In this document: positions 150 through 34,903 of the stretch, piece after piece | Position numbering within the stretch: position 1 is the first letter of the stretch | How the letters are laid out: each line of letters opens with the position of its first letter | NCBI GenBank assembly: GCA_902596165.1 | Contig: CACJSU010000003.1 | Span: 62,001-126,000, forward strand | Length of the DNA: 64,000 nt | Direction: 5' to 3' | DNA from: an uncultured SAR86 cluster bacterium | Lineage (GTDB): Bacteria > Pseudomonadota > Gammaproteobacteria > Magnimaribacterales > D2472 | Notes under the pieces: model-generated | Told to the model about the DNA's origin: nothing | Seen by the model: the letters and a program-made list of their open reading frames with translations, nothing else | Databases searched by the model: none | Position numbers and translations under genes: made by a program

Positions 150-962
150 TTATGACTCTCTTCCATAGTAATCTTCGTATCTCGTAATATCTGACTCCTC
201 TAATATCTCTCCGCATTGAACCTCTATAACGATCAGCTCTTCAGTATGCTCATTTGAAAGTCTATGAATTGAATGCAATGGAATGAAAACATATTCACCT
301 GAATTAACCAGAGAGATTTTTGAATCGATTTCAACTGTAGCTTGACCTCTAACTACAACCCAATGCTCAGATCTATGTTCGTGTTTTTGCAGGCTAAGTT
401 TTCCACCAGGATTAACATTAAGTTGTTTAACCTTAAATCCAAACTCGTCAATAAATGCAGAGTGCTTTCCCCATGGTGCAATAATTGTTTCTGTGCTAAT
501 GAGGTGATCTGTTTTAATATTTGAAGCATAATTTGTGATAAAGTTTTCAACCATCCATGAACTGCTGTTAATTTTTTCTATTCCACCAATTCCGTATATA
601 AATTCAACGCTTGGATTGTCAGAAAATTTCTTAAGCTCGGGAGTATTTTCTTTGCCTCTATCTCCACCATTTGCAAAAATAACTTTATTTGAAAACTTTA
701 AACATTCGTTTATTGCATCACATGCTGAATTATCCCTGTCATCGAATTCAATTACAGCATCTACAAAATTTAAATTCTCTATAATTGCTTTCCTTTCATT
801 AATTGGCATAAGCAAATATTTTTTCTTTCTTATCAACCATTCATCAGAATTTAAACCAACGATTAGATATTTAGAAGATTTTTTGGCTGCTTTGAAATAC
901 TCTATATGCCCTCTATGCAGGGGATCAAAGCCACCAGTAACTAAGCAGATTTCGTCTTTCAT
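150..962 (-). CDS. Fusion of a cytidylyltransferase-like domain with a ManC-type cupin
   Basis: The 270-residue protein has two parts. Residues 1 to about 135 are a nucleotidyltransferase of the RfaE-C/TagD kind, with GGFDPLHRGH carrying the HxGH nucleotide-binding motif (His16, His19) and a later GGD motif as in HldE. Residues about 160-270 are a complete cupin like the C-terminal isomerase domain of bifunctional mannose-6-phosphate isomerase/GDP-mannose pyrophosphorylase, including PWG, LSLQKHEHRSEHW and the ending RYEDYYGR. The family knowledge predicts activation of a sugar or polyol phosphate plus aldose-ketose isomerisation; the substrate is unknown. It follows a glycerophosphotransferase-like gene by 34 bases, and the transketolase upstream suggests a ketose or heptose phosphate. 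No frame break is seen between the domains, so this is a real fusion. Confidence 0.72.
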   Translation of the reverse strand: MKDEICLVTGGFDPLHRGHIEYFKAAKKSSKYLIVGLNSDEWLIRKKKYLLMPINERKAIIENLNFVDAVIEFDDRDNSACDAINECLKFSNKVIFANGGDRGKENTPELKKFSDNPSVEFIYGIGGIEKINSSSWMVENFITNYASNIKTDHLISTETIIAPWGKHSAFIDEFGFKVKQLNVNPGGKLSLQKHEHRSEHWVVVRGQATVEIDSKISLVNSGEYVFIPLHSIHRLSNEHTEELIVIEVQCGEILEESDITRYEDYYGRES

Positions 963-996: not shown

Positions 997-2382
997 CTAA
1001 AGAATGTCCTCACACATTTTTAATAAGCGATCCTGATATGACAAATGGTCTTGATAATAAAAATAGTTGCGTTGTTCATCGATAAGTTGAGGGTTTAAAG
1101 CGTCTTTAGAATCCAATAACTCAATTAAGCATTCTTCAAGATCATCTAAATTCGAGCAAAGTGTGACTGCATCCATTTCATCTATTCCTTCAAAATGAGT
1201 ATAGTTTTCGTAAACATTATGCATGCTTGTAAAATGTTTTGTATCATCGTGAATTAATCCGAGAAACCTTTTATGAAAAATCAATGCTTCTATCATCATT
1301 GAAGTAAGCCCTCCAATCACAAATTCCGCATTACTAATGAGAGATGGATAATATGATAATGACGGCTGAAGAGATACATCTCGTTTTCCTGATTTATATG
1401 CATCTTCTAATTGCAAGTCAACCACTACATGTTTTAAGTTTTCTAATTCAAATATTTCATCTGTCTGGCGCCATGGATGGGGCCTATATACAATTTTGAT
1501 GCCATGAAGCTTTAAATTTTTTTCAATAATTTCGTTCAATCGAATTAAAACACTTGGTTCATCAAAAACAAGTGCGGTTCCTACAAAGAGAATATACTTA
1601 TAAGTATATGGAGAGTTTAATTGTGAATCTCTTAGAGAAAAATATTCGTCATATCTTGGGGTCCCAAGAAGAAATACTTTTTCATCTTGAAATCCTTGAA
1701 TATTTTTTGCATGCTCTTTGCTTTGAAGGCCCCAAACTCCTATAAAAGATGGTAACTCCCAAAAAATAGACTTGCTTGAAAGATTATCCCAATTATCAAT
1801 TAAAAATCCTATAGGAATATCCTTATCTTTACAGATTTTAATTAGATCTGTTCCTTCTGGATCATGAGCCGAAGAGGGAAACAAAACTAAATCAGGAGTT
1901 AGCTTCTCAATCTTTTGATGAAGTGGCTTATTAATTCCCATAATCATATTTAAAATAAATAAGTAAATCGGCAGAATTAATGAATTAGCTATAAAAATAT
2001 TTCTTAAAAATAAATATGAATATCTAATTAATCTCCAAATAGATTTTAAAAATCTTAATAAAATTGGGACTTTTGATCCGAAATGCAAATCTAAGCCCTG
2101 CACTCTTTTAATACGGAATCTAAATGTTTTTGATTTTGATCGATAGTGCCACATGAATAAATCAAAAAGCTTGTAATAAACTTTCTGCCTGAAAATAGAA
2201 ACTGGATAACTGAAATGCTCTATTTGCTCAATTTCCTCAACAGATTTAATTTCATTTGATATTAAAAAACTAAGTGAAAATTTCTTTTTTAATGCATCAA
2301 GCGCGGAAGTAGTAAGATAATTTCTAATGTAGATATCATTAGTTATTACAAATAAAATTTTCTTTTTATCTTTTGTATTCAT
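997..2382 (-). CDS. Surface-glycan transferase, CDP-glycerol glycerophosphotransferase-like
   Basis: A 461-residue cytosolic or membrane-associated GT-B-like protein. The middle part has VLFPSSAHDPEGTDLIK, IGFLIDNWDNLSSK and VFLLGTPRYDEYF, and the C-terminal half has YRPHPWR and a FVIGGLTSMMIEAL segment. This pattern is seen in proteins related to CDP-glycerol:polyglycerophosphate glycerophosphotransferases and capsule polysaccharide synthesis proteins. A basic hydrophobic stretch around residues 105-150 could attach it to the membrane. It sits between the transketolase (17 bases upstream) and the nucleotidyltransferase-cupin (34 bases downstream), so it may use the product that those enzymes make and activate. 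The exact donor and acceptor cannot be read from the sequence. Confidence 0.55.
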   Translation of the reverse strand: MNTKDKKKILFVITNDIYIRNYLTTSALDALKKKFSLSFLISNEIKSVEEIEQIEHFSYPVSIFRQKVYYKLFDLFMWHYRSKSKTFRFRIKRVQGLDLHFGSKVPILLRFLKSIWRLIRYSYLFLRNIFIANSLILPIYLFILNMIMGINKPLHQKIEKLTPDLVLFPSSAHDPEGTDLIKICKDKDIPIGFLIDNWDNLSSKSIFWELPSFIGVWGLQSKEHAKNIQGFQDEKVFLLGTPRYDEYFSLRDSQLNSPYTYKYILFVGTALVFDEPSVLIRLNEIIEKNLKLHGIKIVYRPHPWRQTDEIFELENLKHVVVDLQLEDAYKSGKRDVSLQPSLSYYPSLISNAEFVIGGLTSMMIEALIFHKRFLGLIHDDTKHFTSMHNVYENYTHFEGIDEMDAVTLCSNLDDLEECLIELLDSKDALNPQLIDEQRNYFYYQDHLSYQDRLLKMCEDIL

Positions 2383-2399: not shown

Positions 2400-4340
2400 T
2401 TATTCACTATATAATAGATTTAATCTATCAAATATTGCCTTCACACTCAGATTATGTGCTTCTAATACCTCATCATTTGTACCGCACTCTGGAATTTTAT
2501 CAACTGCTATCCTTGAAAATGACATATCTTTAATATGATTTCTAGAAATAATTTCACTAATTCTTGCGCCTTGACCACCCTCATAAAAATGATTATCTAA
2601 TGCTATCAAATAAGAACATGAATTAATTTCTTCTAGAAACCATTCTTCATCTATATTATTGAGCCATGGTAAATTTATTACCTTAACCTCTATGTTGTTT
2701 TTCTCTTCAAATAGTTGGGCAGCTTGGAATGCAGATTCAACCATTATTGGGCCATATGCTGTAATGATCATTTTTTCACCCTTTGTTAGACTAACGCCCT
2801 TTCCAGGCTGCGCAATGTAATTAGTCGGTAATTTAAATGAAATTCTCCACGGAACGCTTGTAAGACGAATATAAGAACTTGCAGACGACTCTTCAATGCA
2901 CCAATCTAAAAGCATGCCAACTTCCTTTTCGCATGAGGGTTCCATTAATGTCATACCAGGCATTCCTCCCAAAGAAGATATATCTCTTACTGATTGATGA
3001 GAATGGCCGGGTCCTCCAGGTAGAACTCCTGCCAATGAACCGACATAAATAATTTTTGTATATTCAGTAGAATTATTATAGATTTGCTCATTAGCTCGGG
3101 TTGACAAAAAACATGCAAATGAATGGACTATGGGTATCAAGCCCTTAATTGCCATTCCTCCTGCTTGAGAAACCATATCTTGCTCAGCTATTCCACATTC
3201 TATGAACTGTTCTGGGAATTTTTCTTTTATTGGAGCTATGCCGGTATCTTTTATTAAATCTGCATCAAGTACGGCAATATTTTTGTTTAAAGAAACGTTC
3301 CTTAAAAGAGAATCTGAATACGCAGATATAAGATGTTGATTAGCTTCATTAGAATTGATATTTGGTTGCTCTATTCGTTCAAGGGAAAGTTCAGTCTCTT
3401 TAAGATCTTTTAATAATTTATTTGAATTTGTAATTAACTCCTGAACTGCCAAATGGTATAAATCTGAAGAAGGGGCTCCGCTATGAAATTTATAAAATTC
3501 TGTATCAGAGTCCTCAGATGTATGCTCCATAAAAGAGACACCCTTGCCTTTAACAGTATCTGCAATTATTACTTTAGGTTTCATAATATTATTTTCAAGG
3601 GATTGTAAGACGCTAGAAAACTCTTGAATATTATTACCATCACAACGTGAAACATGCCATCCAAAAGACTTTAATTTGCCCTCTAAATCACCTAAATCAC
3701 TTACATTAGAAACAAAAGTATCAGATTGCAGTTTATTATGATCAATGATTACTATTAACTCATTAATATTATTATTTGCAGCTGAAATAAGGGATTCCCA
3801 GAACTGACCCTCTTGCAATTCACCATCTCCAGTTAATACAAATACATTGCTTTTAATACCCTTGCTTCTATTTGCAAAAATCATACCTTTTGCCTTAGAT
3901 ATTCCCATCCCTAAGGATCCTGTATTAGTAACAACTCCAGAAATAGAAACATCAGGGTGACCTGGAAGACCTCCAATGCGTCTAAGCTGGTGTAAAAGTT
4001 CAAAATCTAACTCTCCTATGCCAATCAATGAAGAATAAATTGCTGGAGCATCATGGCCTTTGGAAGAAAAAAACAAGTATTCTTCCTCAGATTGTATCTC
4101 TTTTGCTATTAATAACTTATTGAGATGAATCCAAGAGATGATGTCCATGCTTGAAAAAGAGCTGCCAATATGACCTGAACCTGCTTTTGCAATCATATAC
4201 AAAGTATTGATTCTGCATAATGATGCATATACTTTAGTCTTATCTATGGGATTTAAATCAGATTCAAGAATCCTTACAAATTCATCACGAGAAACATAAT
4301 ACATCTCTCCAACTACTGCTTTTCCTATTAGATCGCCCAT
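2400..4340 (-). CDS. Transketolase, single-chain, in a sugar-biosynthesis operon
   Basis: At 646 residues this is a full-length transketolase-fold protein. It has an N-terminal thiamine diphosphate domain with GSGHIGSS (His57) and GDGELQEGQFWE (from residue 171, ending in the IIDHN segment of the GDG-N motif), then a pyrimidine-binding domain with ECGIAEQDM, and a C-terminal domain. Transketolases move two-carbon ketol units between sugar phosphates. In other glycan loci such enzymes often appear as two half-genes; here they are joined. It has about ten extra N-terminal residues before the usual fold. It lies 9 bases after the CMP-sugar synthetase in the NeuB operon, which suggests a dedicated role in making an unusual keto sugar precursor rather than central metabolism; that is inference. 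Confidence 0.85.
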   Translation of the reverse strand: MGDLIGKAVVGEMYYVSRDEFVRILESDLNPIDKTKVYASLCRINTLYMIAKAGSGHIGSSFSSMDIISWIHLNKLLIAKEIQSEEEYLFFSSKGHDAPAIYSSLIGIGELDFELLHQLRRIGGLPGHPDVSISGVVTNTGSLGMGISKAKGMIFANRSKGIKSNVFVLTGDGELQEGQFWESLISAANNNINELIVIIDHNKLQSDTFVSNVSDLGDLEGKLKSFGWHVSRCDGNNIQEFSSVLQSLENNIMKPKVIIADTVKGKGVSFMEHTSEDSDTEFYKFHSGAPSSDLYHLAVQELITNSNKLLKDLKETELSLERIEQPNINSNEANQHLISAYSDSLLRNVSLNKNIAVLDADLIKDTGIAPIKEKFPEQFIECGIAEQDMVSQAGGMAIKGLIPIVHSFACFLSTRANEQIYNNSTEYTKIIYVGSLAGVLPGGPGHSHQSVRDISSLGGMPGMTLMEPSCEKEVGMLLDWCIEESSASSYIRLTSVPWRISFKLPTNYIAQPGKGVSLTKGEKMIITAYGPIMVESAFQAAQLFEEKNNIEVKVINLPWLNNIDEEWFLEEINSCSYLIALDNHFYEGGQGARISEIISRNHIKDMSFSRIAVDKIPECGTNDEVLEAHNLSVKAIFDRLNLLYSE

Positions 4341-4349
4341 TTTGACTCC

Positions 4350-5108
4350 TTAGCTAATTTTATAAGCTGGCTTTTTAATTTCTAGAAGAATATTAGGATT
4401 CTCTTTTATAAGATCTCTTGCGAAATGTAGATCTCTAGGATGATTAATATCAAACCCTTCATAACCTGAACTAATAAAAGGTATGATATTTTTTCCAGAA
4501 ATATTTTTTTCTTCTTTCACAACTCTTATCCAAGCTATTTCTAGGCTAGCATTCTGAACATAAATTTCTGGCAATGCTTCATATTGATTACTGTGCCAAG
4601 GAACGCCATTTAAGGTTTTCTGCATAATAGGAGTCATGAATTTTTCATTAACTTCCCACATTTTACCCGGATGTTGAGAGCATTTTTCTACAGCTCTAAG
4701 AGAATCTGCATCTGAATTCTCAAAAAATAATTTAAAAGCTGATTGGATAGTTTTCTTTGTTCTAAAAGGACTAGTTGGTCTTAAGATGCTAAATATATCA
4801 AATACTTTATTATCTTTTTCAAGTTCAAAAATTGTTGAAGTTACCCAGTCAATATCTGGAGAAGAATCTCCCGAAATTTTTTTTGACCTTAAAAAGGGAA
4901 CTTTTGCACCATAATATTCTGCAATTTCTGCATACTCAGGACTGTCTGTTGAACAAATTACTTCATCAAAAAAACCTGATTGAATTGCGACATTAATTGA
5001 ATAAGCAAGCATTGGATGTTTTCCAAGCAAAGTAACATTTTTATTAGGAATTCTTTTAGAACCAGACCGAGCAGGGATAATTGCAAGTGTCTTTGGTTTA
5101 GTTTTCAT
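4350..5108 (-). CDS. CMP-nonulosonate (acylneuraminate-type) cytidylyltransferase, first copy
   Basis: The 252-residue protein starts with LAIIPARSGSKRIPNKN, the CTP-binding motif of the NeuA/KdsB-like family, and continues with VICSTDSPEYAEIAEYYGA and LRPTSPFRTKKTI. The family couples CTP to a 3-deoxy-2-ulosonic acid to give the CMP-sugar used by sialyltransferase-like enzymes. It is co-oriented with a NeuB synthase, KdsC-like phosphatase, SDR and aldehyde dehydrogenase just upstream, so it should activate that pathway's product. A second, distinct NeuA homologue lies at 30405-31106, implying that two different CMP-sugars are made. Confidence 0.82.
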   Translation of the reverse strand: MKTKPKTLAIIPARSGSKRIPNKNVTLLGKHPMLAYSINVAIQSGFFDEVICSTDSPEYAEIAEYYGAKVPFLRSKKISGDSSPDIDWVTSTIFELEKDNKVFDIFSILRPTSPFRTKKTIQSAFKLFFENSDADSLRAVEKCSQHPGKMWEVNEKFMTPIMQKTLNGVPWHSNQYEALPEIYVQNASLEIAWIRVVKEEKNISGKNIIPFISSGYEGFDINHPRDLHFARDLIKENPNILLEIKKPAYKIS

Positions 5109-5151
5109 ATTAATGCAGCAATATATTTCTAATAAATTTTACAGCTATTTT

Positions 5152-6615
5152 TTAAATTAAATCTGGTCTATTCAAAATAGAAATGTTTTTTAACTCTGAA
5201 TATACATCTAGCGCTTCTAAACCAGGCTCTCTTGTTCCATTTCCTGATAGACCAAAACCACCAAATGGCATATGTGGCTCACTTCCATATGTACCAAAAT
5301 TAATGTTTGCGAGCCCAGCCTTAACTTTTTTTGCAAACCATAGTCCTCTATCAATATTTTTGGTATGAATTGCTGCGGTAAGTCCATAATCAGTTTTATT
5401 TGCTATCTCTATGGCTTGAGATAGATCATCAGCTTTTGAAATTGAAGTAACTGGACCAAAAATTTCAATATTGTTAATTAGTGAATTTGAATCAGCGCAT
5501 TCAAAAATAGTTGGCTCAATATAAAATCCATTTTTTAACTCCTTAGTTTCAGGAATGCCGCCCCCACATAGCAAAGTTTCAGTCAATTTTGCTTGATTAA
5601 TTATTTCAATAATCTTTTCTTGTTGGGCTTTATTTATAACTGGCCCAAGGTCTGAACCCTCGTGGATACCAAGTTTTAATGACTTAGCTTTTGCGATAAA
5701 GAGTTCCTTGAATTCTTCATATATATTCTCAAAAACAATTATTCTACTGCCTGAGGCACATCTTTGACCTGCATTGCTAAATGCAGAAAGCGATGCCCAA
5801 TGCACAGCTCTTTCAATATCAGCATCATCACAAACGATAAAAGGATTTTTCCCACCAAGTTCAAGCGACACTCTTGCTAATCTGCTTGCTGCCTCAACAG
5901 CAATTAATTGGCCAACATGTGTGGACCCAGTAAAACTTATGACATTAATTTGTGGATTAGCAACTAACGCTGCTCCAGAAATTTCTCCTTTGCCATGGAT
6001 AACATTTAAGATACCGTCTGGCAAACCAGCTTTTTTAGTTAATTTTGCAAATAAATTAGCTGTATTTGGGGCATCCTCAGATGATTTAAGTATTACGGTA
6101 TTTCCACAAATTAATGCAGGAAAAACTTTCCAAGCAATATTTGCAATTGGGGTATTTGCTGGAACGATAAGAGCTGCAACCCCATGTGGCTCTCTAACAG
6201 TATGACTAGTCTTTCCATCCATTCCAGAGTTTAATGATTGGCCAAAAAGCCTCATTCCCTCACCTGCAAAATATTCCCCTTGCAAAATTGCTCCTTGAAC
6301 TTCACCGCTGGCATCAGAAATAGATTTTCCTGTTTCTAGGGCAACAGTTTCTGTTAGTTCAGATAAGTTATTTTTCATTTGAGCGACAATAGCCCCAAGA
6401 AACTGACCACGTTTAATTGGATTTAATGATGACCATGAAGAAAATGATCTAAAGGCTAGTTTTACAGTATTATCCACAGCTTCTTGGGTTGAGTTGCAAA
6501 AGATAGATAACAGCTTTCCATTGTGTGGATTATATTTCTCAATCCAATCTTCTTGAGGGATAAAAACCTCCTGACCATTTATCCAGTTACCTATTTTTAA
6601 AATTTGCTTATTCAT
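5152..6615 (-). CDS. NAD(P)-dependent aldehyde dehydrogenase in the NeuB operon
   Basis: About 487 residues when started at the ATG at 6615, which lies 5 bases after the SDR stop; the longer frame to 6642 would overlap the SDR gene by 23 bases and adds nine residues without family similarity. Family motifs are present: the LELGGKNPF catalytic Glu (about residue 252), NAGQRCASG with the nucleophile Cys (about 286), FTGSTHVG for NAD(P) binding and the C-terminal MPFGGFGLSGNG. It oxidises an aldehyde to a carboxylic acid. Its place between an SDR and a CMP-sugar synthetase suggests it acts on a sugar or side-chain aldehyde in glycan precursor synthesis; the substrate is not identifiable. Confidence 0.85.
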   Translation of the reverse strand: MNKQILKIGNWINGQEVFIPQEDWIEKYNPHNGKLLSIFCNSTQEAVDNTVKLAFRSFSSWSSLNPIKRGQFLGAIVAQMKNNLSELTETVALETGKSISDASGEVQGAILQGEYFAGEGMRLFGQSLNSGMDGKTSHTVREPHGVAALIVPANTPIANIAWKVFPALICGNTVILKSSEDAPNTANLFAKLTKKAGLPDGILNVIHGKGEISGAALVANPQINVISFTGSTHVGQLIAVEAASRLARVSLELGGKNPFIVCDDADIERAVHWASLSAFSNAGQRCASGSRIIVFENIYEEFKELFIAKAKSLKLGIHEGSDLGPVINKAQQEKIIEIINQAKLTETLLCGGGIPETKELKNGFYIEPTIFECADSNSLINNIEIFGPVTSISKADDLSQAIEIANKTDYGLTAAIHTKNIDRGLWFAKKVKAGLANINFGTYGSEPHMPFGGFGLSGNGTREPGLEALDVYSELKNISILNRPDLI

Positions 6616-6619
6616 AATT

Positions 6620-7423
6620 TTAAATAGCTGTCCATCCACCATCTATAACAAGATTAGAGCCAGTCATATAACTTGAAGCTGAACTAGATAAAAAAAGAAT
6701 TGCTCCATTATACTCATCTAAATTTGCCATTCTTCCAATAGGAATTCTTTTACAATAGGCATCAAGAAATCTTTGATCTTGATCATCTAAAACGCCTGCT
6801 AATGTCAAAGTATTAACTCTTACTCCTTGCTTTGCCCAATATGTTGCAAGATATCTCGTAAGATTATAAATACCTGATTTAGAAGCAGAATAAGAGATAG
6901 GTTTATAAAATTCATTGCCTTCATCTCTTAAGTATTGGTATAAGGATTGATCTGGAGAGACGGAACCATATATAGAGGAAACATTGATAATTGAGCCCTG
7001 GCTATGTCTAGCCATTTCTGACCCATAAACCTGACATGTTAAAAAAATACCTTTTAAATTAACTGATAAAACTTTATCCCATGAACTTTCAGGATAATTT
7101 TCAAATGAACCAGTATCTTCGGGAGGTGCTGATGGGGGTGAATCTAGAGCAGCATTATTAATAAGAACATTTGGGTATCCAAACGATTCGATAGTTTTCT
7201 TAAGAGAGTCAGTAATAGATTCTTTAGAGGTTATGTCAGTACTGCAGAAAATGAAAGAGTTTGGATATTTTTTTTCAAGATAAGAAATATTTTCTGAAAC
7301 TGATATATCAAGGCATACTACCTTTGCATTTGCCTTGAGTAACATTTGAGCATACTCTCCGCCTAAGGCTCCTGATGCACCAGTAATAACTACAACTTTT
7401 TCACTTACATCAAAAAAATCCAT
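6620..7423 (-). CDS. Short-chain dehydrogenase/reductase (classical SDR) in the NeuB operon
   Basis: The 267-residue protein is a classical SDR: VVVITGASGALGG for the cofactor, INVSSIYG carrying the catalytic Ser, YSASKSG carrying the Tyr-Lys pair, and a C-terminal GSNLVIDGGWTAI ending. It probably reduces or oxidises a sugar carbonyl with NAD(P)H. The stop of the upstream phosphatase directly abuts its start, and it is followed by the aldehyde dehydrogenase, so the three are almost surely cotranscribed. SDRs of this type occur in nonulosonate clusters, where several have no assigned reaction. An insertion containing SPDQSLYQYL sits between the Ser and the Tyr motif and may shape the substrate pocket. 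Confidence 0.83.
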   Translation of the reverse strand: MDFFDVSEKVVVITGASGALGGEYAQMLLKANAKVVCLDISVSENISYLEKKYPNSFIFCSTDITSKESITDSLKKTIESFGYPNVLINNAALDSPPSAPPEDTGSFENYPESSWDKVLSVNLKGIFLTCQVYGSEMARHSQGSIINVSSIYGSVSPDQSLYQYLRDEGNEFYKPISYSASKSGIYNLTRYLATYWAKQGVRVNTLTLAGVLDDQDQRFLDAYCKRIPIGRMANLDEYNGAILFLSSSASSYMTGSNLVIDGGWTAI

Positions 7424-7924
7424 TTAATCAGCATCCATGTCTTCGTGTGCATGCAAAATCATGTCACAAATTTCTCTTACAGCTCCCTCACCACCTTTTT
7501 TAGTAGTTTTATTAATAATATATTTATCTATTTCTGGAAATGAATCTGCAACTCCTATTGGATATCTTACACTTTTAAAAGCTGAAATATCGTTAATGTC
7601 ATTACCTATGAACATAGATTGATTAGGCAGAAGGTTTAATTCTTTGCAAATTTCTTTTATTGCCAAACCCTTATCAGATATACCTTGCATTACTGGAATA
7701 TTAAGTTTTTTAGCTCTCTGTGATACAACCGGATTTTTTTCTGTGGATATAATGTATATCTTAATACCAGTTTTTTTAAGGCGCTCAATTCCAATGCCGT
7801 CGGACCTGAAACATCTTACTGATTCAATGCCATTTTGATCAACATAAACAAAATTATTTGTGAAAACACCATCAAAATCAAAACAAACTAGCTTAATTTT
7901 TTTAAGCTCATCTATTGGAATCAT
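7424..7924 (-). CDS. KdsC/YrbI-like HAD phosphatase
   Basis: A 166-residue cap-less HAD protein of the KDO-8-phosphate phosphatase type. FDFDGVFTNN holds the nucleophile aspartates (Asp16, Asp18), IYIISTEKN the second motif, and FIGNDINDISAF the metal-binding acidic motif. The family removes phosphate from 2-keto-3-deoxy sugar acids such as KDO-8-P or KDN-9-P. Directly downstream of neuB (9-base gap) and abutting the SDR, it implies that this NeuB makes a phosphorylated product, as in the KDN-type route. That separates this pathway from the second NeuB cluster, which has no phosphatase. Confidence 0.83.
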   Translation of the reverse strand: MIPIDELKKIKLVCFDFDGVFTNNFVYVDQNGIESVRCFRSDGIGIERLKKTGIKIYIISTEKNPVVSQRAKKLNIPVMQGISDKGLAIKEICKELNLLPNQSMFIGNDINDISAFKSVRYPIGVADSFPEIDKYIINKTTKKGGEGAVREICDMILHAHEDMDAD

Positions 7925-7933
7925 ATTTTTCTG

Positions 7934-8968
7934 CTACTTAGATTCAAAGTGAGAGTATGTTAAATACTCTCCTGCAACTAAATCTTGTTTGGCAATTAAA
8001 CCTATAACTTTGTTAGACTCTCTCACGGGTATGTATTGATCATTAAAAATTTTTCCAGACAAATCATCAATTGAAATAACTTCTCCTGCAGCGATATCTC
8101 TATTCGGAACTAACGATTTTCCAAGCTTTTGGAATACATATTCGTTTCCTAAATCGTCAGCAGGCTTTAGTGGAAGCATATGTCTGACTCTATTAATATC
8201 TCTAACAAAATTCCTAAATCCATGAGGTTCAAGTGCAAAACTATGATCTGTTCCTTTCCAAGCTCGATTGAGGGTAACATGTTTCTCAAATACTCTAGCT
8301 CCTTGCATATATGCAACAGGACCGGAAAGAGTTCCATTGAAATGATCTGATGATCCAATTGTGCATTCAGGGAATTCATTAATAAGAGTCGCAACATTTT
8401 CTAAACCTAGTCTATTAAACTCACATGGATATTCTGAGACACAGTGCAAAAGCGCAACTTCAGATTTAGCAGCAAGCAAGACTTCAATACTTGATCTAAT
8501 TTGATCAATTTTACCTCCCCCAATACTGATTACTATTGGACAACCTACATTGGCCATTTTTTTTATTAAAGGTAAATTTCCAAGATCAAATGAAGCAACT
8601 TTAATTATATCAATACCTACATCCTTCAGAACTTCTATACTTGGTTCATCAAAAGGTGTTGACATGAAATCTACACCATATTTTTTGCAATCTTCTTTTA
8701 AAGTAGGCAGATGTTTAACATCTAATTCAAGCTTTTCCCTATGAGCCCCATAAGTAGCAGAAAAAGCATTCTCGCTATCATAGTTTTTTTCGTATGCTTC
8801 CTTTGCAAATAGATATTTATTGTTTCGAGTTTGAAATTTAATCGCATTTGCGCCCTCAGCAGCAAATATTTTTATGAATTCTCTAGCCGTTTCTAGATCG
8901 CCTTGATGATTTTGTCCTACCTCAGCAATGATGTATGGCGATCCGTCTTCTGTAAATTTTTTAAACAT
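7934..8968 (-). CDS. NeuB-type nonulosonate synthase, first copy
   Basis: The 344-residue protein has the NeuB TIM-barrel domain (residues about 10-260; YIIAEVGQNHQG, IKFQTRNN, FMSTPFDEPSIEVL, GSSDHFNGT) and a C-terminal SAF/antifreeze-like domain (about 280-340; VPNRDIAAGEVIS). The family condenses phosphoenolpyruvate with an aldose to give a 2-keto-3-deoxy acid such as sialic, legionaminic or KDN-type sugars. The FEKHVTLNRAWKGTDHSFAL segment is the metal/phosphate region typical of the family. With the adjacent phosphatase it probably condenses a phosphorylated aldose. It follows rmlA by 16 bases in one long minus-strand operon. Confidence 0.88.
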   Translation of the reverse strand: MFKKFTEDGSPYIIAEVGQNHQGDLETAREFIKIFAAEGANAIKFQTRNNKYLFAKEAYEKNYDSENAFSATYGAHREKLELDVKHLPTLKEDCKKYGVDFMSTPFDEPSIEVLKDVGIDIIKVASFDLGNLPLIKKMANVGCPIVISIGGGKIDQIRSSIEVLLAAKSEVALLHCVSEYPCEFNRLGLENVATLINEFPECTIGSSDHFNGTLSGPVAYMQGARVFEKHVTLNRAWKGTDHSFALEPHGFRNFVRDINRVRHMLPLKPADDLGNEYVFQKLGKSLVPNRDIAAGEVISIDDLSGKIFNDQYIPVRESNKVIGLIAKQDLVAGEYLTYSHFESK

Positions 8969-29280: not shown

Positions 29281-30349
29281 TTATGATTTGATAATTTCCA
29301 TAAAAATTTTTATCGATTTCTACATCATTATATAAACCATTCTCAAGAAAATTAATTAGCTCTTTTATTCCGTCATTTACACTCCAAGATGGCTCAAAGA
29401 ACAGAACTTTTTTTACCTTTGAAAAATCTACAATATAGTTTCTAGGATCTGTTCCCCCGTCCACATATTTTACTGTTAAATTAGGGATGTATTTTTGAAT
29501 TAAATCCACTATATTTCTTTTGGTCAGGTTGTTAGAGTCTCCTCCAGCATTAAAAATTTGGTAATCGGTTTTTTTAATTTCCATTATAAGAACTCTTTCT
29601 ATTAAATGTGCAAAATCTCTCACATGACAGTATGGTCGCCAAGTATCTGCATCATATACTTCAAGAAAATTTTTAATATAAGCATCACGTATGAATTCAT
29701 TTACAGTTAAATCAAACCTCATTCTTGGGGCAGCCCCAAAAGCAGTAGCAAATCTAAGAATTGTTGCCGAAAAATCAAATTTATTTCTATTATCAATTAT
29801 GTATTTTTCGTTGTTAACCTTGTCTTGTGCATACAAAGAAAGAGGATTTAATTCAAAATTTTCATCTGCCTTTTCCCCATCCTTTATTAGCCCATAATTT
29901 GAACAAGTTGAGATAAATATTAATTTATTGATACCCTGACCATTCGCAGAATTAATAAAACCCTTGATTGCTTTATTATTGATATCGTCAGAAAGTTCAG
30001 GATATTTTTTTGTAATTGGATCTCCAACTAAACCTGCCAAAACTACTACATCAGTGATATTGTTTTTTTTGAAAAAATCTACTTCTAATTCGTCTCTAAG
30101 GTCATGTTGAAAGAATTTAATATTTTTATTTAATAAAGATGAGAGCAAAGATTTTCCATGATTATAGATAAAATTATCCATTATCAATACCTTGATACCT
30201 TTTGAGGCTAATGTATTTGCTATGCATAGCCCAATGTATCCACCTCCACCTGCAAGCAAAACGACTCTAGGATTTCCTTTAAAAATTTCTTTGAACCTCT
30301 GAGTTTCTATTTCAATGGATTGAGAGACTTCAGTATCTTCATTGTGCAT
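29270..30349 (-). CDS. NAD-dependent epimerase/dehydratase (extended SDR), unassigned
   Basis: About 359 residues from the ATG at 30349; a longer frame runs on to 30487 but lies under the divergent neuA gene and lacks similarity. VVLLAGGGGYIGLCIANTLA binds the nucleotide, STCSNYG holds the Ser site, and LYAQDKVNNE the Tyr-Lys pair; ATAFGAAPRMRFDLTVNEFI and WRPYCHVRDFA are features of an extended SDR group common in sugar loci but without a settled reaction. Its position next to legC is where a 4,6-dehydratase would be expected, but it lacks the Thr-Asp-Glu dehydratase triad seen in RmlB. Epimerase or ketoreductase are the simplest alternatives. Confidence 0.72.
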   Translation of the reverse strand: MHNEDTEVSQSIEIETQRFKEIFKGNPRVVLLAGGGGYIGLCIANTLASKGIKVLIMDNFIYNHGKSLLSSLLNKNIKFFQHDLRDELEVDFFKKNNITDVVVLAGLVGDPITKKYPELSDDINNKAIKGFINSANGQGINKLIFISTCSNYGLIKDGEKADENFELNPLSLYAQDKVNNEKYIIDNRNKFDFSATILRFATAFGAAPRMRFDLTVNEFIRDAYIKNFLEVYDADTWRPYCHVRDFAHLIERVLIMEIKKTDYQIFNAGGDSNNLTKRNIVDLIQKYIPNLTVKYVDGGTDPRNYIVDFSKVKKVLFFEPSWSVNDGIKELINFLENGLYNDVEIDKNFYGNYQIINEQ

Positions 30350-30404
30350 AATATATAATGATGTTTTAAAATCTAAATTATACTCCACAATTTTTTTAAG
30401 CTCT

Positions 30405-31106
30405 GTGATAAATAAAAATAAAAATAAAAATATAGCCTTTATCTTTGCTCGAGGTGGCTCAAAGGGTTTATCAAAAAAAAATATCAAAGACTTTCATGGA
30501 AAGCCTCTTATAGCATGGACTGTAGAGCAAGCTCTTAAAACTAACATTTTTGAATCAGTTATTGTCAGTACTGACGATGATGAAATAGCAGGTATAGCCA
30601 AAGAATATGGGGCTAAAATACCCTTTTCTAGACCCACTGAACTTGCATCAGATACTTCTAATGAATGGTTTTCATGGAAACATAGTGTTGAAAATTTAGA
30701 TCATGATTTTCACTACAATTTTGTATCATTACCATGTATTAGTCCCTTGAGATCAGAGGAAGATATTATTAATACAATAAATTTTTATGAAAAAAATAAT
30801 TTTGACTTAGTTTTTACAATTGCAATCTCAGACAGATCTCCATACGTGAATATGGTTGAATTTAACAGTACAGGCGAGGTTAGCTTATCAAAAACAATAG
30901 ATTCTAAAAAAATATATAGAAGGCAGGATTCGCCAAAAATATATAATATTGTTCCATCTGTCTATGTAACCAGTCCTAAATATATTAAAGAAAATGAATC
31001 AATGTGGTCTGGGAAGCTTTCCGGATACGAAATTCCTATTTCAAGATCAGTAGATATTGATACCTATAAAGATTTTAAATTTGCAGAAATGTTATTTAAA
31101 GAATGA
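30405..31106 (+). CDS. CMP-nonulosonate (legionaminate-type) cytidylyltransferase, second copy
   Basis: About 233 residues from a GTG at 30405, chosen because IAFIFARGGSKGLSKKNIK, the CTP-binding motif, then follows within a dozen residues; an ATG at 30342 would add 21 residues of no family similarity and overlap the divergent SDR start. IVSTDDDEIAGIAKEYGA, LPCISPLRSEEDI and SRSVDIDTYKDF match NeuA/LegF proteins. It activates the product of the neighbouring NeuB as CMP-sugar. The gene begins with an NK-coding repeat (three TAAAAA units) and overlaps neuB by four bases. Confidence 0.83.
   Translation: MINKNKNKNIAFIFARGGSKGLSKKNIKDFHGKPLIAWTVEQALKTNIFESVIVSTDDDEIAGIAKEYGAKIPFSRPTELASDTSNEWFSWKHSVENLDHDFHYNFVSLPCISPLRSEEDIINTINFYEKNNFDLVFTIAISDRSPYVNMVEFNSTGEVSLSKTIDSKKIYRRQDSPKIYNIVPSVYVTSPKYIKENESMWSGKLSGYEIPISRSVDIDTYKDFKFAEMLFKE
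30413..30430 (+). repeat. Three tandem TAAAAA units at the start of neuA
   Basis: The hexamer TAAAAA occurs three times in a row, coding alternating Asn and Lys just after the predicted GTG start. Gain or loss of one unit would keep the frame. It lies 64 bases from the divergent SDR start and so also inside the likely promoter of that gene. In AT-rich DNA such repeats arise often, so function is uncertain. Confidence 0.6.
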
Positions 31107-32122
31107 AAAATAAAAGCATCAAAATTATAGCTGAGGTAGGTGTAAATCATAATGGAGATATACAAAGCGCTCAGAGATATATAAAAGCAGCAAAAGATGC
31201 TGGAGCAGATGCAGTTAAATTCCAATTATTTACCTCTGAAAAATTAGTAACTGAAGATGCTAATACGGCTAAATATCAAAAAAATCAGACAGGCTCTTTA
31301 AAACAAAAAGATTTATTAAAAGGCCTTGAATTAACAAAAAAACATATAATTTATCTCAAAAAATATGCAGAAAAATTAAAAATTGAATTCATATGCACTC
31401 CATTTGACATAGATTCTCTAAAATTTTTAATAAATCAAAAAATTTCATGTTTAAAACTTTCTTCCGGTGATTTTGATAATATATTTATGCATGAGGAAAT
31501 TATAAAACACTCTTACCCGGTGATTCTTTCAACCGGAATGTCTGATCTTGAAGAAATTAAGAAAGTATTTAATCTATACAAATCTAAAGGACATACTAAT
31601 TTCTCTTTTCTCCATTGTGTAAGCATCTATCCCGCAGACTTATCTTTAATTAACTTAAGTTTTATTAAAACTTTAGAAAATTCATTTCCAGACATTTCGA
31701 TAGGCTTTTCAGATCATACTTCTGAGACCATCTCGGGTGCATTAAGCGTTGTTGCAGGAGCAAAAATTATTGAAAAGCATATCACCTTTTCAAATCATGC
31801 CGCTGGCCCTGATCACAAAGCATCTCTAACCATTTCAAATTTTAGAAAATATGTTAACAACATTCGTGTTGCCGAAGAATCAATTGGTGATGGAAAGAAA
31901 TATATTTCTAGAGAAGAGCTAGAAGTTAAAAGAATTGCAAGAAGAAGTCTTGCATATTCAAATACATTAAAAAAAGGTACGAAAATTAAAAAAAATGACT
32001 TAATTTCACTTAGGCCAAATATTGGTATATCAACATTTAGATATAAAGAGGTAGTTGGAAATATCTTAAAGAAAAATGTTCGAAAAAATTCACTTATTAA
32101 ACTTTCAGATTTTATAAAATGA
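31103..32122 (+). CDS. NeuB-type nonulosonate synthase, second copy (LegI-like)
   Basis: 339 residues: NeuB barrel with IIAEVGVNHNGDIQSA, ADAVKFQLF, FICTPFDIDSLKFL, GFSDHTSETISGALSVVAGA and IIEKHITFSNHAAGPDHKASL, then a C-terminal SAF domain (about 275-335). This GPDHKASL form is that of the unphosphorylated-substrate NeuB/LegI enzymes, unlike the first copy's WKGTDHSF. It condenses phosphoenolpyruvate with a 6-deoxy-diamino-mannose type sugar. It is coupled by four-base overlaps to neuA before and the NeuC-like gene after it. Confidence 0.87.
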   Translation: MKNKSIKIIAEVGVNHNGDIQSAQRYIKAAKDAGADAVKFQLFTSEKLVTEDANTAKYQKNQTGSLKQKDLLKGLELTKKHIIYLKKYAEKLKIEFICTPFDIDSLKFLINQKISCLKLSSGDFDNIFMHEEIIKHSYPVILSTGMSDLEEIKKVFNLYKSKGHTNFSFLHCVSIYPADLSLINLSFIKTLENSFPDISIGFSDHTSETISGALSVVAGAKIIEKHITFSNHAAGPDHKASLTISNFRKYVNNIRVAEESIGDGKKYISREELEVKRIARRSLAYSNTLKKGTKIKKNDLISLRPNIGISTFRYKEVVGNILKKNVRKNSLIKLSDFIK

Positions 32123-33231
32123 AAAAGTTGGGAGTGGTCAGCGTTGGAAGATCGGATTTTTCAATTCTTGAAGATTTTTTACTGAAACTACAAAAAAATA
32201 AAATTAATTTTAAAATTTTTGCTTCAACTGCACATTTTTCTATGGAATATGGAAGAACAGTAGATGAAATATTGAAATTATTTCCAAAAAAAAGAGTTGT
32301 GGATGTGGATACAAAAATTCGAGTTCTTTCAAATCTGGATTTATCTTGTTCCATTGCAGAACATATTTCGCTATTTTCTAAAAAATTTAAATCAGAAAAA
32401 ATTTCCTCTCTCTTGCTTCTTGGCGATAGATTTGAAACTTTTGCAGCTGCAATTGCAGCAACTTCATTGGGAATTGAAATTGTTCATCTGCATGGTGGTG
32501 TTGTAACTCTAGGATCAATGGACAATGCCTTTAGGGGCGCTATATCTGAGATGTCTAAATATCACTTTGTAGATAATAAAAAAGCTCATGAAAGACTTAC
32601 AAGAAAAGGTTTTAAAAAGTCTGAAGTCTTTTTTCTTGGCTCCTTAGCAGTTGAAAATTTTCTTACATCTGAAGCAATTTCAGATAAAGTTTTTTATAAA
32701 AAAATATTTGGTAAAAATAATTCTTTTCCATTTGCTTTGGGAACCTTTCATCCATCTACAAAAATAATAGAAAATGATGAGCAGGTTTTAAAAAATATTA
32801 TAAAAGGAGTTACCTCAAAGAAAATCCATCTTTTATTTACTTTTCCTAATGCAGATATAAATAATGCTCATATTATAAAAATTTTAAGAAAAGAGGCTTC
32901 GAAAAATAAATTTTTAACTATCAAAAAAAATTTAGGGACAAATTTATATTATTCTGCAATAAAAAAATCACTATTCATGATAGGCAATTCGTCAAGCGGA
33001 ATAATAGAATCATGTGCATGTAAGGTGCCTGCAATCAATATTGGTTCTCGACAAAATGGTAGAGACATGAACTTCAATACTCTTTCGTGCAAAGGGACTC
33101 AACAGTCCATAAAAGCTGGTATTAAAAAAATACAGAGTAATTCATTTTTAAACAAGGCGTTTAAGAATGATATCTACTTCAAAAAAGGTTCTAGCGACTT
33201 TCTTCTTAAAAAAATAATTGAGATTATTTAG
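32119..33231 (+). CDS. NeuC/LegG-like UDP- or GDP-HexNAc 2-epimerase, with a catalytic Glu replaced
   Basis: 370 residues of the hydrolysing 2-epimerase family: KLGVVSVGRSDFS, LLGDRFETFAAAIAAT (Asp103), IVHLHGGVVT, MDNAFRGAISEMSKYHF (Asp135), FHPST and IGNSSSGIIE. The family removes the nucleotide and inverts C2, giving the free mannose-type aldose that NeuB uses. In characterised members the HxHGG motif is followed by a Glu that is catalytic; here it is Val128 (codon GTT at 32500-32502). The His of FHPS and the two Asp remain. The family's IRH is also changed to FRG. It is the last gene of the three-gene plus-strand operon and ends two bases from the convergent gene. Confidence 0.8.
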   Translation: MKKLGVVSVGRSDFSILEDFLLKLQKNKINFKIFASTAHFSMEYGRTVDEILKLFPKKRVVDVDTKIRVLSNLDLSCSIAEHISLFSKKFKSEKISSLLLLGDRFETFAAAIAATSLGIEIVHLHGGVVTLGSMDNAFRGAISEMSKYHFVDNKKAHERLTRKGFKKSEVFFLGSLAVENFLTSEAISDKVFYKKIFGKNNSFPFALGTFHPSTKIIENDEQVLKNIIKGVTSKKIHLLFTFPNADINNAHIIKILRKEASKNKFLTIKKNLGTNLYYSAIKKSLFMIGNSSSGIIESCACKVPAINIGSRQNGRDMNFNTLSCKGTQQSIKAGIKKIQSNSFLNKAFKNDIYFKKGSSDFLLKKIIEII

Positions 33232-33233
33232 AC

Positions 33234-34295
33234 TTATATAAAATCTTGGAATTTTTTTAAATCTTCTTTTGATCCAATATCAATCCATAGATCTTGTATT
33301 TTGTGAACACCAACAGTCATATCTGAATCAAGCAATATTTCAATTAAAGATGTTGCATCAAATACAGTATCTTTGGGTATAAGCTCAAGTGCTTTTCTAG
33401 TGAATGAGTAAATACCGCTATTTATGTTGAAAGAAATTTTTGGCTTTTCTTCTATCTTAATTAATTCAGAATTATTTTCATCTATGACGCCATATGGGAC
33501 TGTAATAGAATAATCTTTTGCACAAATCGTTGCATCAAAATTATTTGTATTATGAAAATCTAAAATATTATTATATTTTGTAGTACAAATAATATCTCCA
33601 TTTGTTAGCAAGATAGGATATTTGATTCCATCCATAGATAAAAGTTCTGATAAGGCGCCAATTGTTCCTCTTGTTTTTGTCTCATGAATGTATTTAATAT
33701 TAATATCTCTACTGGACCCATCTCCAAAATAACCTGTGATCATTTCAGAAAGATAATTCACTGAAATAACAAAGTCTTTGAATCCTTGTGATTTAAAGCG
33801 CTCAATAATACTTTCTAAAATAGGTGTATCTCCAATTTTAAGCATTGGTTTTGGTGTATCTAATGTAAGCGGGTGTAGACGCGTTCCAAGGCCGCCAGCC
33901 ATTATTACAATAGTATTAGAATGATCTACAAATCCAGAAGACGAAACTCTTAGCCCAACTAATTGACCTTTTGAGTCAAGAAGTGGCAAATGCTGGATAT
34001 TATTTTTCTCAATTGCTGAAATTTGATCAGATAAAGCACTTGAATAATTTTCTGTAATTGGTGCATAGTTAATTATCTCAGTTGCATTAAAGTCCAAAGT
34101 TTTGTGTTTGACAATGCCTCTTCGAATATCAAAATCAGTTATTATCCCTTGAAATTCTTTTTTTTGATTCTGCACCAATGCAATTCTGTGGCCTTCTTGC
34201 TCAATAATATTTAGAATCTCCAGAATTGAAAGATCCTCAGTAACTGATATTTTTTTAAGCGCATCTCCCTGGAGTAAAATTGTATTTATGATCAT
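33234..34295 (-). CDS. CBS-domain nucleotidyltransferase, PtmE-like (GlcN-1-P guanylyltransferase type)
   Basis: 353 residues. The first ~115 hold two CBS domains (ILEILNIIEQEGHRIALV, GIITDFDIRRGI, LPLLDSKGQLVGL), and the rest a sugar-phosphate nucleotidyltransferase domain with [20 protein letters not shown] and ILLTNGDII. PtmE in Campylobacter, with the same layout, makes the GDP-amino sugar that starts the legionaminic acid route, so this fits the second NeuB pathway. The CBS pair may bind adenine nucleotides for regulation. It overlaps by four bases the NeuD-like gene that precedes it. Confidence 0.83.
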   Translation of the reverse strand: MIINTILLQGDALKKISVTEDLSILEILNIIEQEGHRIALVQNQKKEFQGIITDFDIRRGIVKHKTLDFNATEIINYAPITENYSSALSDQISAIEKNNIQHLPLLDSKGQLVGLRVSSSGFVDHSNTIVIMAGGLGTRLHPLTLDTPKPMLKIGDTPILESIIERFKSQGFKDFVISVNYLSEMITGYFGDGSSRDINIKYIHETKTRGTIGALSELLSMDGIKYPILLTNGDIICTTKYNNILDFHNTNNFDATICAKDYSITVPYGVIDENNSELIKIEEKPKISFNINSGIYSFTRKALELIPKDTVFDATSLIEILLDSDMTVGVHKIQDLWIDIGSKEDLKKFQDFI

Positions 34296-34903
34296 AATCT
34301 TTTAGCAGGAATCCCTACATAGCTCCCCGGCTTGCTAATGTCATTGATGACGATAGATCCACTTCCAATTATGACATCATCACAAACTGAAACTCCTGGA
34401 TTAATACAGCTATTTGCACCAACAAACACATTTGATCCCAAGGAGACTCCTCCACATATAACCGCACCAGGAGCAATTTGAGAGAAATCTCCGATAAAAC
34501 AATCGTGCTCTATAATTGAATTCGTATTGACAATAACATGCTTTGAAATATGAGCATCTATATTTATTACAGCGCCAGGCCCTACAAAAATACCTTCCTC
34601 GAAATTATAGCGATTAGATAAAGTTGATTCTTTGCTAATGATGTTGCAGAAAGAATGATCTTTAAATTTCGAGTAAATTTTCTTTCTAGTGACTCCTTCA
34701 CCTATTCCTATAAATGATTCTATTTTATTGTTAGGCTGTGAAATAGGTTCATTATATTGCAGGAAAAATTTATCAGAAATTGATTCAATAATTTTTGATT
34801 CACCATTTCCATGAAATATAATTTTTTCATAGCGCTCTAGTTTAAGAGCAGTGTCTGCAACTATCTTTGCATGCCCTCCAGCGCCAAATATCCAAAGCTC
34901 CAT
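34292..34903 (-). CDS. NeuD/PglD-like acyltransferase (left-handed beta-helix)
   Basis: 203 residues. LWIFGAGGHAKIVADTALKL at the start is the Rossmann-like sugar-binding part of the NeuD/PglD/LegH group, and from about residue 95 on come hexapeptide repeats (GAVINIDAHI, IEHDCFIGDFSQIAPGAVIC and GANSCINPGVSV) that form the beta-helix for acetyl-CoA, with the catalytic His in IEHDC. It N- or O-acetylates an amino sugar. In the legionaminic pathway this class acetylates the C4 amine put in by LegC. It is the first gene of a two-gene minus-strand unit facing the 230-base divergent gap. Confidence 0.85.
   Translation of the reverse strand: MELWIFGAGGHAKIVADTALKLERYEKIIFHGNGESKIIESISDKFFLQYNEPISQPNNKIESFIGIGEGVTRKKIYSKFKDHSFCNIISKESTLSNRYNFEEGIFVGPGAVINIDAHISKHVIVNTNSIIEHDCFIGDFSQIAPGAVICGGVSLGSNVFVGANSCINPGVSVCDDVIIGSGSIVINDISKPGSYVGIPAKRL

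Follow-up and report, generated by a model that had tools for sequence, protein, structure and literature searches.

A conserved gene cassette joins a NeuB-family synthase to a variant transketolase and may make a CMP-activated sugar acid

INTRODUCTION

What would a NeuB operon make if, besides a phosphatase and a CMP-synthetase, it encodes a short-chain dehydrogenase (SDR), an aldehyde dehydrogenase (ALDH) and a full-length transketolase (TKT)? Such an operon lies in a 64,000-nt stretch of DNA from an uncultured SAR86 cluster bacterium (GenBank assembly GCA_902596165.1, contig CACJSU010000003.1, positions 62,001 to 126,000, forward strand). This whole stretch is termed the window in what follows, and coordinates refer to it.

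RESULTS

The six-gene set

Six closely packed genes, defined by ORF coordinates and family profiles, run along the minus strand from 8968 to 2400. An earlier note, made from the letters alone, had placed them together in one operon, and their coordinates and their Pfam and NCBIfam families bear this out. With the two genes that follow them, they are:

7934..8968, minus strand: NeuB-family 3-deoxy-2-ulosonate synthase, 344 aa, NeuB barrel plus SAF domain
7424..7924, minus strand: KdsC/KDN-9-phosphatase-like HAD phosphatase, 166 aa
6620..7423, minus strand: NAD-type SDR (PF13561/PF00106)
5152..6642, minus strand: NAD-type ALDH (PF00171, 475.1 bits)
4350..5108, minus strand: CMP-synthetase of the NeuA/PseF class (PF02348, 78.9 bits; PseF, 137.9 bits, cut-off 205.7)
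2400..4340, minus strand: full-length variant TKT, 646 aa (PF00456, PF02779, PF02780)
997..2382, minus strand: putative glycosyltransferase, the next operon gene, 17 nt past TKT
150..962, minus strand: fusion of a cytidylyltransferase-like domain (PF01467, 40.8 bits) with a type II phosphomannose-isomerase cupin (PF01050, 110.9 bits)

The gaps are 9 nt (NeuB/KdsC), 0 (KdsC/SDR), 43 nt (ALDH/CMP-synthetase) and 9 nt (CMP-synthetase/TKT), and the SDR and ALDH genes overlap by 23 nt. The synthase has the barrel and C-terminal SAF domain that mark the NeuB family, both above their Pfam cut-offs (PF03102, 221.9 bits; PF08666, 31.4 bits); against NeuB_NnaB it scores 243.3 bits, below the NCBIfam cut-off of 399.65. 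The phosphatase scores 109.9 bits with TIGR01670 (cut-off 106.95) and 97.8 bits with KDN-9-PPhBT (cut-off 180). Among the NCBIfam matches listed (25 of 44 for the ALDH, 25 of 202 for the SDR), none of the six proteins reaches an equivalog cut-off, and the KdsC-like protein alone passes one at subfamily level. The best listed family for the ALDH is alpha-ketoglutaric semialdehyde dehydrogenase (412.7 bits, cut-off 770), while the listed SDR matches comprise gluconate 5-dehydrogenase, KduD and many others, all below cut-off. Scores this generic would count against specific roles for the two enzymes.

The Tyr and Lys of the YxxxK motif are present in all 54 aligned cassette SDRs, which end beta-2 with Asp (50) or Glu (4), and the catalytic Cys, catalytic Glu and NAD-type Glu in 51/51 aligned cassette ALDHs. 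These NAD-type residues would be in line with oxidation by both enzymes.

The product of 997..2382 has no Pfam match and matches the BFO_1060 family of glycosyltransferases weakly (23.7 bits, cut-off 200); tblastn places relatives (23–50% identity) directly downstream of TKT in loci L008, L010, L011 and L071. It is a possible user of the CMP-sugar. None of the six genes encodes a ketose-aldose isomerase; a phosphomannose-isomerase-type cupin lies two genes further on, in the fusion gene at 150–962, which ends the same-strand run in the window and is a candidate operon member. The window holds a second NeuB set at 30342–33231, with a NeuC (TIGR03568, above cut-off).

Recurrence and spread of the cassette

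The check named in the earlier note, conserved co-occurrence of the six genes, had a positive outcome. The neighbourhoods of 54 relatives of the TKT with adequate flanks contain NeuB (51), CMP-synthetase (51), SDR (50), ALDH (46) and a HAD phosphatase (42); 37 of the 54 loci hold all six genes, and 48 hold NeuB, SDR and CMP-synthetase. The phosphatase is of the KdsC type in 29 loci and of the HAD2 type in 13, never both in one locus, as if the two stand in for each other; neither occurs in 12. Viewed from the SDR, TKT adjoins 37 of 40 matches at 52% identity or more, or 32 of 35 once five previously known genomes are removed. Judged by record title, the same gene set surrounds TKT in loci of many phyla; Methyloversatilis thermotolerans (L085), Methylomonas (L022) and Moorena strains are among the carriers. 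Recurrence around TKT and, reciprocally, around the SDR rules out a chance neighbourhood. The six genes are a true cassette, patchily distributed and grouped beyond chance, and apparently spread horizontally.

In the class to which a locus titled Candidatus Sulfopaludibacter (L051) belongs, 29 of 193 genomes carry the cassette SDR. A class-wide NeuB search at the strict limit of 1e-95 returned the window itself as its sole match (1/369). Among plasmid records a single related TKT passed the limit of E 1e-120 (Streptomyces, 43.9% identity), and phage-labelled records gave 17 matches at E 1e-20 or better, every one below 33% identity.

Gene order is shuffled in L045 and L075, and TKT is replaced in L136. 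One genome from the window genome's own order (G045) has NeuB, KdsC, SDR, ALDH and CMP-synthetase followed by a two-gene split transketolase; because this enzyme is far more distant (28–37% identity), transketolase activity itself appears to be needed. The ALDH is not indispensable, since it is missing from 19 kb around L181 and from ∼15 kb on each side in Streptomyces L148, and since a search of the genomes of L031, L047, L065 and L072 with the ALDH of L066 as query yielded no relative above 38% identity.

A further variation is seen in L008 and L071, whose titles name different phyla. Both have an aldonate-dehydratase-family protein and a PanE-type reductase inserted after the ALDH (79% and 46% identity between the loci, respectively), and they have in common a divergent CMP-synthetase (71% identity). 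Such an insert would fit an ALDH whose product is a sugar carboxylate.

The variant transketolase

The earlier note had let its proposal depend on the cassette TKT not being the sole transketolase of the genome. A separate canonical transketolase is encoded there, retaining all surveyed catalytic and phosphate-contact residues, which rules out the cassette TKT as the only enzyme of this kind for the pentose phosphate pathway.

We surveyed 93 distinct cassette TKT sequences (E. coli numbering). Thiamine-binding and catalytic residues are those of canonical pentose phosphate transketolase (H26, H66, H100, E411 and H473 in 93/93), as is the three-domain architecture. The positions that we take to be its phosphate contacts, S385, H461 and R520, are in contrast replaced: the first is Asp in 93/93, the second never His and the third never basic, one such pocket being S385D/H461G/R520S. 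D469 is also replaced. H286 of the window TKT, at the H261 position, is invariant in the alignments. The alignment is unsure in the R358 region, where nearly all rows of three alignments have a gap (Arg in L065, Ser in one row) and another alignment has Ile or Val. The split TKT of L136 retains R358 and S385.

The structural model (mean pLDDT 77.9) has low-confidence active-site loops and leaves the pocket without resolution. Its overall domain arrangement superposes on DXS (TM 0.72) better than on TK (0.45), with human TK first by E-value, at 22–24% identity in the structure comparison. Because the phosphate-contact positions are replaced throughout the family, ordinary sugar-phosphate traffic into NeuB is argued against. 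By analogy, the cassette TKT may be specialised for an unphosphorylated keto-acid donor.

DISCUSSION

A proposed route

We give roughly even chances to the reading that the cassette makes a CMP-activated sugar acid of a surface polysaccharide by truncating the tail of a longer acid. What is observed is the gene linkage and the change in the TKT pocket; for each step, the substrate, the place in the sequence of reactions and the product are our inference, as follows. NeuB would condense an aldose phosphate, which is probably a hexose 6-phosphate, with PEP to form a 3-deoxy-2-ulosonic acid phosphate, and the KdsC-like phosphatase (HAD_2-type in other lineages) would take off the phosphate. The NAD-dependent SDR would then oxidise the last carbon but one (C8 if the acid is KDN-like) to leave a CH2OH-CO- tail. 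With this unphosphorylated keto-acid as donor, the variant TKT would remove a two-carbon ketol, giving an aldehyde at C7, which the NAD-dependent ALDH would oxidise to a 3-deoxy-hept-2-ulosaric acid bearing a carboxylate at each end; the CMP-synthetase would activate this product. The stereochemistry fits on paper: by derivation, C7 and C6 of 8-keto-KDN, read from the tail, are D-threo, as in fructose and xylulose, the usual transketolase donors. The two-carbon acceptor would not obviously be a pentose phosphate, the phosphate site being changed.

The wider proposal is somewhat short of an even chance: a new and widespread class of CMP-activated 3-deoxy-ulosaric acid, a natural keto-sugar-acid TKT that cuts the tail of a nonulosonic acid, and, in L008/L071, a side branch leading on to a 3,5-dideoxy product once the acid end is dehydrated and reduced.

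Comparison with known systems

As in the KDN pathway, one operon unites a NeuB-family synthase, a KdsC/BT-type phosphatase and a NeuA-type CMP-synthetase, and the six genes include neither an aminotransferase nor an N-acetyltransferase. All three enzyme classes of that pathway are thus present, with the phosphatase short of the KDN-9-PPhBT cut-off. The KDN pathway needs no more sugar-modifying enzymes, whereas the cassette adds a near-constant SDR (50/54), ALDH (46/54) and TKT (beside 37/40 SDRs). Of the 2-epimerase or dehydratase and the amino- and acetyl-transfer genes of the sialic, legionaminic and pseudaminic pathways, none is among the six. These comparisons support the earlier note's transketolase-linked NeuB pathway outside the known KDN, Kdo, sialic, legionaminic and pseudaminic sets. 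No description of such a pathway or gene combination was found in the open-access literature, a scope that leaves out most subscription journals and all bioRxiv preprints, and the product is probably a CMP-activated keto acid that the papers searched do not describe. Among the open-access matches listed for transketolase together with glycans and sugar nucleotides, and among those listed for nonulosonic gene clusters, nothing was relevant.

The proposed enzyme triad has a parallel in the route from 5-keto-gluconate to tartaric semialdehyde and L-tartrate. For grapevine, passages of PMC11066805 propose a dehydrogenase, a transketolase that cleaves a keto-sugar acid and a semialdehyde dehydrogenase; the second and third of these steps are putative. 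An engineered E. coli TktA, R358I/H461S/R520Q, is altered at the same positions as the cassette TKT and is 55.3% more active on unphosphorylated 5-keto-gluconate, according to PMC12016104. That gain is modest and no substrate switch, which would weigh against the analogy. Tartrate, moreover, is a free C4 acid, whereas in the cassette the triad is coupled with NeuB and a CMP-synthetase, and its TKT forms a natural, separate family.

The predicted product would be, like Dha, a C7 ketodiacid. Dha is D-lyxo; by derivation, mannose 6-phosphate would give the L-arabino isomer and glucose 6-phosphate the L-lyxo isomer. In the family to which the Rhizobium locus belongs, only 2 of 394 genomes carry the cassette SDR, which rules out the cassette as the general origin of Dha in the LPS of Rhizobiaceae; the remaining 15 SDR matches in that family (45–47% identity) have neither NeuB nor TKT within 19 kb.

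Alternative explanations

An ordinary KDN or sialic-type locus, with TKT, SDR and ALDH as chance neighbours serving other sugars, is strongly disfavoured and to us very improbable: polysaccharide loci are modular and gene-rich, and in the available text of PMC9000132 a Serratia KDN/Neu5Ac capsule locus has sialic acid genes named only neuA and neuB, but the linkage here is reciprocal and widely recurring, shuffled orders (L045, L075) and a replaced TKT (L136) included. The earlier note had also suggested a new aldose precursor, with TKT supplying NeuB with a new aldose phosphate by normal two-carbon transfer between sugar phosphates. NeuB and a KdsC-like phosphatase do imply a phosphorylated aldose, and the TKT belongs to the operon; S385, H461 and R520 are however replaced in 93/93 sequences, the genome already has a canonical TKT, and the SDR and ALDH are left without a step. 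This suggestion has lost ground and seems improbable.

Two readings that give the SDR a role are unlikely rather than improbable. In the slightly stronger one, the triad would act before NeuB: the SDR would make a 5-keto-aldonate, TKT a tetruronic semialdehyde, and NeuB with PEP the ulosaric acid directly. TKT would then need no long-chain substrate, the SDR scores as gluconate-5-dehydrogenase-like, and what was improved in engineered TktA (PMC12016104) is the cleavage of 5-keto-gluconate to tartaric semialdehyde; yet the phosphatase of 42/54 loci has no role, and the ALDH, in making tartrate, would use up the substrate meant for NeuB. Equally doubtful, if not a little more so, is a two-carbon extension, in which the SDR makes an aldehyde of a terminal alcohol of the ulosonic acid and TKT lengthens it with a ketol taken from an unphosphorylated donor, so that the chain exceeds nine carbons. 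Transketolase reactions are reversible and NeuB-SDR-TKT sets without ALDH exist (L148, L181), but where the ALDH is present (46/54 loci) it would have no step and would compete for the aldehyde, and the aldonate-dehydratase-family protein of L008 and L071 is left unexplained. Of the earlier note's alternative of a C2-extended or carboxylated side chain, the carboxylated form comes closest to tail truncation, the route that we favour; extension gives way to a proposed two-carbon removal followed by oxidation.

Significance

If true, the cassette would be a natural source of keto-sugar-acid transketolase, an activity so far engineered (PMC12016104) or proposed (PMC11066805) in the portions of the papers found. 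It would also offer a genetic candidate for making a heptulosaric-type sugar acid; the enzymes for plant Dha are listed as unidentified in the accessible part of PMC12168206. For the bacteria that carry it, in loci titled after many phyla, it would mean a new class of monosaccharide on their surfaces.

Gene layout

The cassette genes lie almost without gaps on one strand, and the strand run continues past the transketolase (TKT); coordinates and family searches give the following layout:

8968 down to 2400, minus strand: NeuB, KdsC-like phosphatase, SDR, ALDH, CMP-synthetase and a 646-aa TKT, in that order
997-2382, minus strand: glycosyltransferase-like gene
150-962, minus strand: nucleotidyltransferase/phosphomannose-isomerase-cupin fusion

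The fusion is unusual, joining an HldE/TagD-like cytidylyltransferase domain to a type II phosphomannose-isomerase cupin. RmlA- and RmlB-like genes, identified by eye, lie upstream of the six-gene run, and the region around the cassette reads as one of surface-polysaccharide synthesis. The window's genome (1.45 Mb in 26 contigs, 86.6% complete) has a canonical transketolase elsewhere (C17), scoring 499.2 bits against PF00456 versus 97.9 for the window TKT.

A second, separate NeuB set without a transketolase occupies window 30342-34903, where CMP-synthetase, NeuB and NeuC (the last above cut-off) are on the plus strand, adjoined on the minus strand by an acetyltransferase of NeuD type, also above cut-off, and by an N-terminally extended nucleotidyltransferase. 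It looks like a sialic/legionaminic-type pathway.

Distribution and linkage

The six genes are a sporadic cassette. No close single-chain copy of the TKT was found among the 59 relatives searched, the top match being 39% over 229 residues. The TKT-first set comprises the best 80 of 92 TKT relatives from one scan of genome contigs (loci L006-L085), whose record titles include Proteobacteria, Acidobacteria, Cyanobacteria, Chloroflexi, Planctomycetes, Nitrospirae, Actinobacteria, Bacteroidetes, Parcubacteria and others. Neighbours were sought up to 9 kb from TKT with profile HMMs made from the loci themselves, and were counted in the 54 of 81 loci (the 80 plus the window) with at least 6 kb upstream and at least 3 kb downstream; the remaining 27 were left out, the window, trimmed to 18 kb, among them. 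Near TKT in these 54 were NeuB (51), CMP-synthetase (51, one of them a 53-bit match in L070 left unconfirmed when its genome was searched with the window enzyme), SDR (50), ALDH (46) and a phosphatase (42), this last being KdsC in 29 and another HAD phosphatase in 13, never both together. The complete set was present in 37/54, and neither ALDH nor a recognised phosphatase is universal.

Some missing members were found farther off. In Moorena bouillonii (L033) NeuB, SDR and ALDH lie ∼14–19 kb from TKT on the same contig, and in a second Moorena genome (L034) they are grouped on a contig other than that of TKT; in Svornostia (L079) SDR, ALDH and CMP-synthetase lie ∼13–16 kb beyond TKT. Contigs other than that of TKT also carry SDR-NeuB (L023), ALDH and CMP-synthetase (the L054 genome), and a 46% ALDH relative (the L040 genome, L066 query). 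The same ALDH query found no relative above 38% in L031, L047, L065 or L072, and the CMP-synthetase search gave only 32% relatives in L024 and L025 and one at 39% in L040.

With SDR as bait, linkage to TKT was again found. SDR occurred in 2 of 203 genomes of the window's order (E 1e-60), both with TKT alongside; in 3 of 311 in the order of a Methylomonas, namely L022 and two whose contig positions correspond to those of L019 and L020; and in 4 of 399 in the order of Methyloversatilis, all four with TKT and one of them (L145) new with respect to the other loci. In the class of L051, searched with the L051 SDR, it occurred in 29 of 193 genomes, and TKT was present at the centre and at 25 of the 28 others; of the three without it, L154 and L162 are cut by a contig end and L168 has none within 6.7 kb. 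The family of the Rhizobium locus (L014) had SDR at ≥52% in 2 of 394 genomes, both with TKT, and 15 further matches at 45–47% without NeuB or TKT (L182-L196). Pooled, TKT was alongside SDR in 37/40 at ≥52% identity and in 37/55 counting all; without the five centres known beforehand (window, L022, L085, L051 and L014) the former is 32/35, many of these non-centre loci overlapping the TKT-first set.

In the two of L182-L196 that were looked at (L185 and L190), the neighbours of SDR look, by eye, like transporter parts, a regulator of GntR type and a protein of RraA/HMG-aldolase type. L049, whose record is titled Bifidobacterium breve MAG, has the same stretch as a genome from the L051-centre class (L167), and its title is probably wrong.

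The transketolase pocket

Residues were mapped onto E. coli TktA, their roles being textbook knowledge. The catalytic residues H26, H66, H100, D155, N185, E411 and H473 are retained in 79/79 TKTs (an alignment without L083 and L084, which are cut by contig ends), and H26, H66, H100, E411 and H473 in 93/93 distinct TKTs (110 rows minus near-duplicates, with split and shorter partial TKTs left out). The H261 equivalent, window H286, is invariant in all 110 rows, duplicates included. Among the 93, the S385 position is always Asp, H461 is Gly (86), Ala (5) or, in the rest, Cys or Phe, R520 is Ser (86) or otherwise Thr, Asn or Ile, and R358 is a gap in 91, Arg in one (L065) and Ser in one, with Ile/Val in a smaller alignment. 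The D469 position is Gly, Ala or Ser, and Pro in the window by a smaller alignment. A structure model of the TKT was poor at the active site, its whole-model overlay being closer to DXS than to TK.

Activity on unphosphorylated 5-keto-gluconate, which yields tartaric semialdehyde, is reported to be 55.3% higher in the E. coli variant R358I/H461S/R520Q (PMC12016104). The natural TKT substrate may be an unphosphorylated keto-sugar acid, for which the positions shared with this engineered variant, modest as its gain was, are the best pointer.

Genome G045, from the window's order, carries NeuB, KdsC, SDR, ALDH and CMP-synthetase followed by a two-gene transketolase (L136:6520-12892), one gene with the thiamine-diphosphate domain and the other with the pyrimidine and C-terminal domains, at 37% and 28% identity to the halves of the window TKT. 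Because a much more distant transketolase fills the same slot here, the reaction, rather than a particular TKT protein, is suggested to be what matters to the cassette. The split enzyme retains R358 and S385 but is Val at 461 and Ala at both 469 and 520; position 520 is Lys or Arg in five split TKTs whose clusters lack the cassette. Split transketolases without the cassette occur in relatives of the window's genome at L133, L134, L135, L137 and L138, the last with NeuB ∼5 kb off. Two other TKTs are long: the Svornostia ORF (L079:9986-13282) has 1098 aa, with no Pfam family matching the last ∼500, and that of Streptomyces (L148) has 908 aa.

Proposed route

NeuB and the phosphatase would make a 3-deoxy-2-ulosonic acid, whose penultimate carbinol SDR would oxidise to leave a ketol tail; TKT would take off this tail as a two-carbon unit, ALDH would oxidise the resulting aldehyde to a diacid, and CMP-synthetase would activate the diacid. 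Such tail truncation gives every cassette gene a step. SDR and ALDH have generic family scores, and both carry NAD-type residues: the end of beta-2 in SDR is Asp in 50 and Glu in 4 of 54 aligned, and the NAD-type Glu of ALDH is present in 51/51 aligned. On paper, 8-keto-KDN has, from its tail, the fructose configuration and so fits a transketolase donor; KDN would give 3-deoxy-L-arabino-hept-2-ulosaric acid, and the L-lyxo isomer would come from a glucose-derived acid. The same triad appears in the plant tartrate proposal, where the transketolase and semialdehyde dehydrogenase are still putative (PMC11066805, PMC7970118).

Two loci, L008 (titled Hydrogenophilales) and L071 (titled Nitrospira), have two extra genes between ALDH and CMP-synthetase (L008:7065-9151, L071:3072-5209). 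One, 79% identical between the loci, belongs with the galactonate/mannonate dehydratases, though its scores are below cut-offs; the other, 46% identical between them, is a 2-keto-acid reductase of PanE type that in L008 exceeds the TIGR00745 cut-off. L011 likewise carries a PanE relative on its short contig. Their CMP-synthetases are 71% alike and only 27% to that of the window. Going by family names, the pair fits the proposed ALDH step: a CHOH-CHOH-COOH end, if ALDH leaves one, would be expected to go to an aldonate dehydratase and then to a 2-keto-acid reductase.

Probable destination of the sugar

Directly after TKT, L024 has glucose-1-phosphate cytidylyltransferase-like and CDP-glucose-dehydratase-like genes (by eye); in L080 genes from these clusters occur near TKT, and L025 has genes of equal sizes there.

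A ∼575-aa protein lies near TKT in 29/54 loci, its representative from L082 scoring 19.1 bits to capsule polysaccharide synthesis proteins, under the cut-off of 20; the window and some other loci instead have a 460-aa glycosyltransferase-like gene there. The putative tail-truncation mechanism we hold to be about evenly balanced, and we are largely confident in the broader prediction of a new transketolase-dependent CMP-keto-acid pathway, whose sugar is likely destined for a cell-surface polysaccharide.
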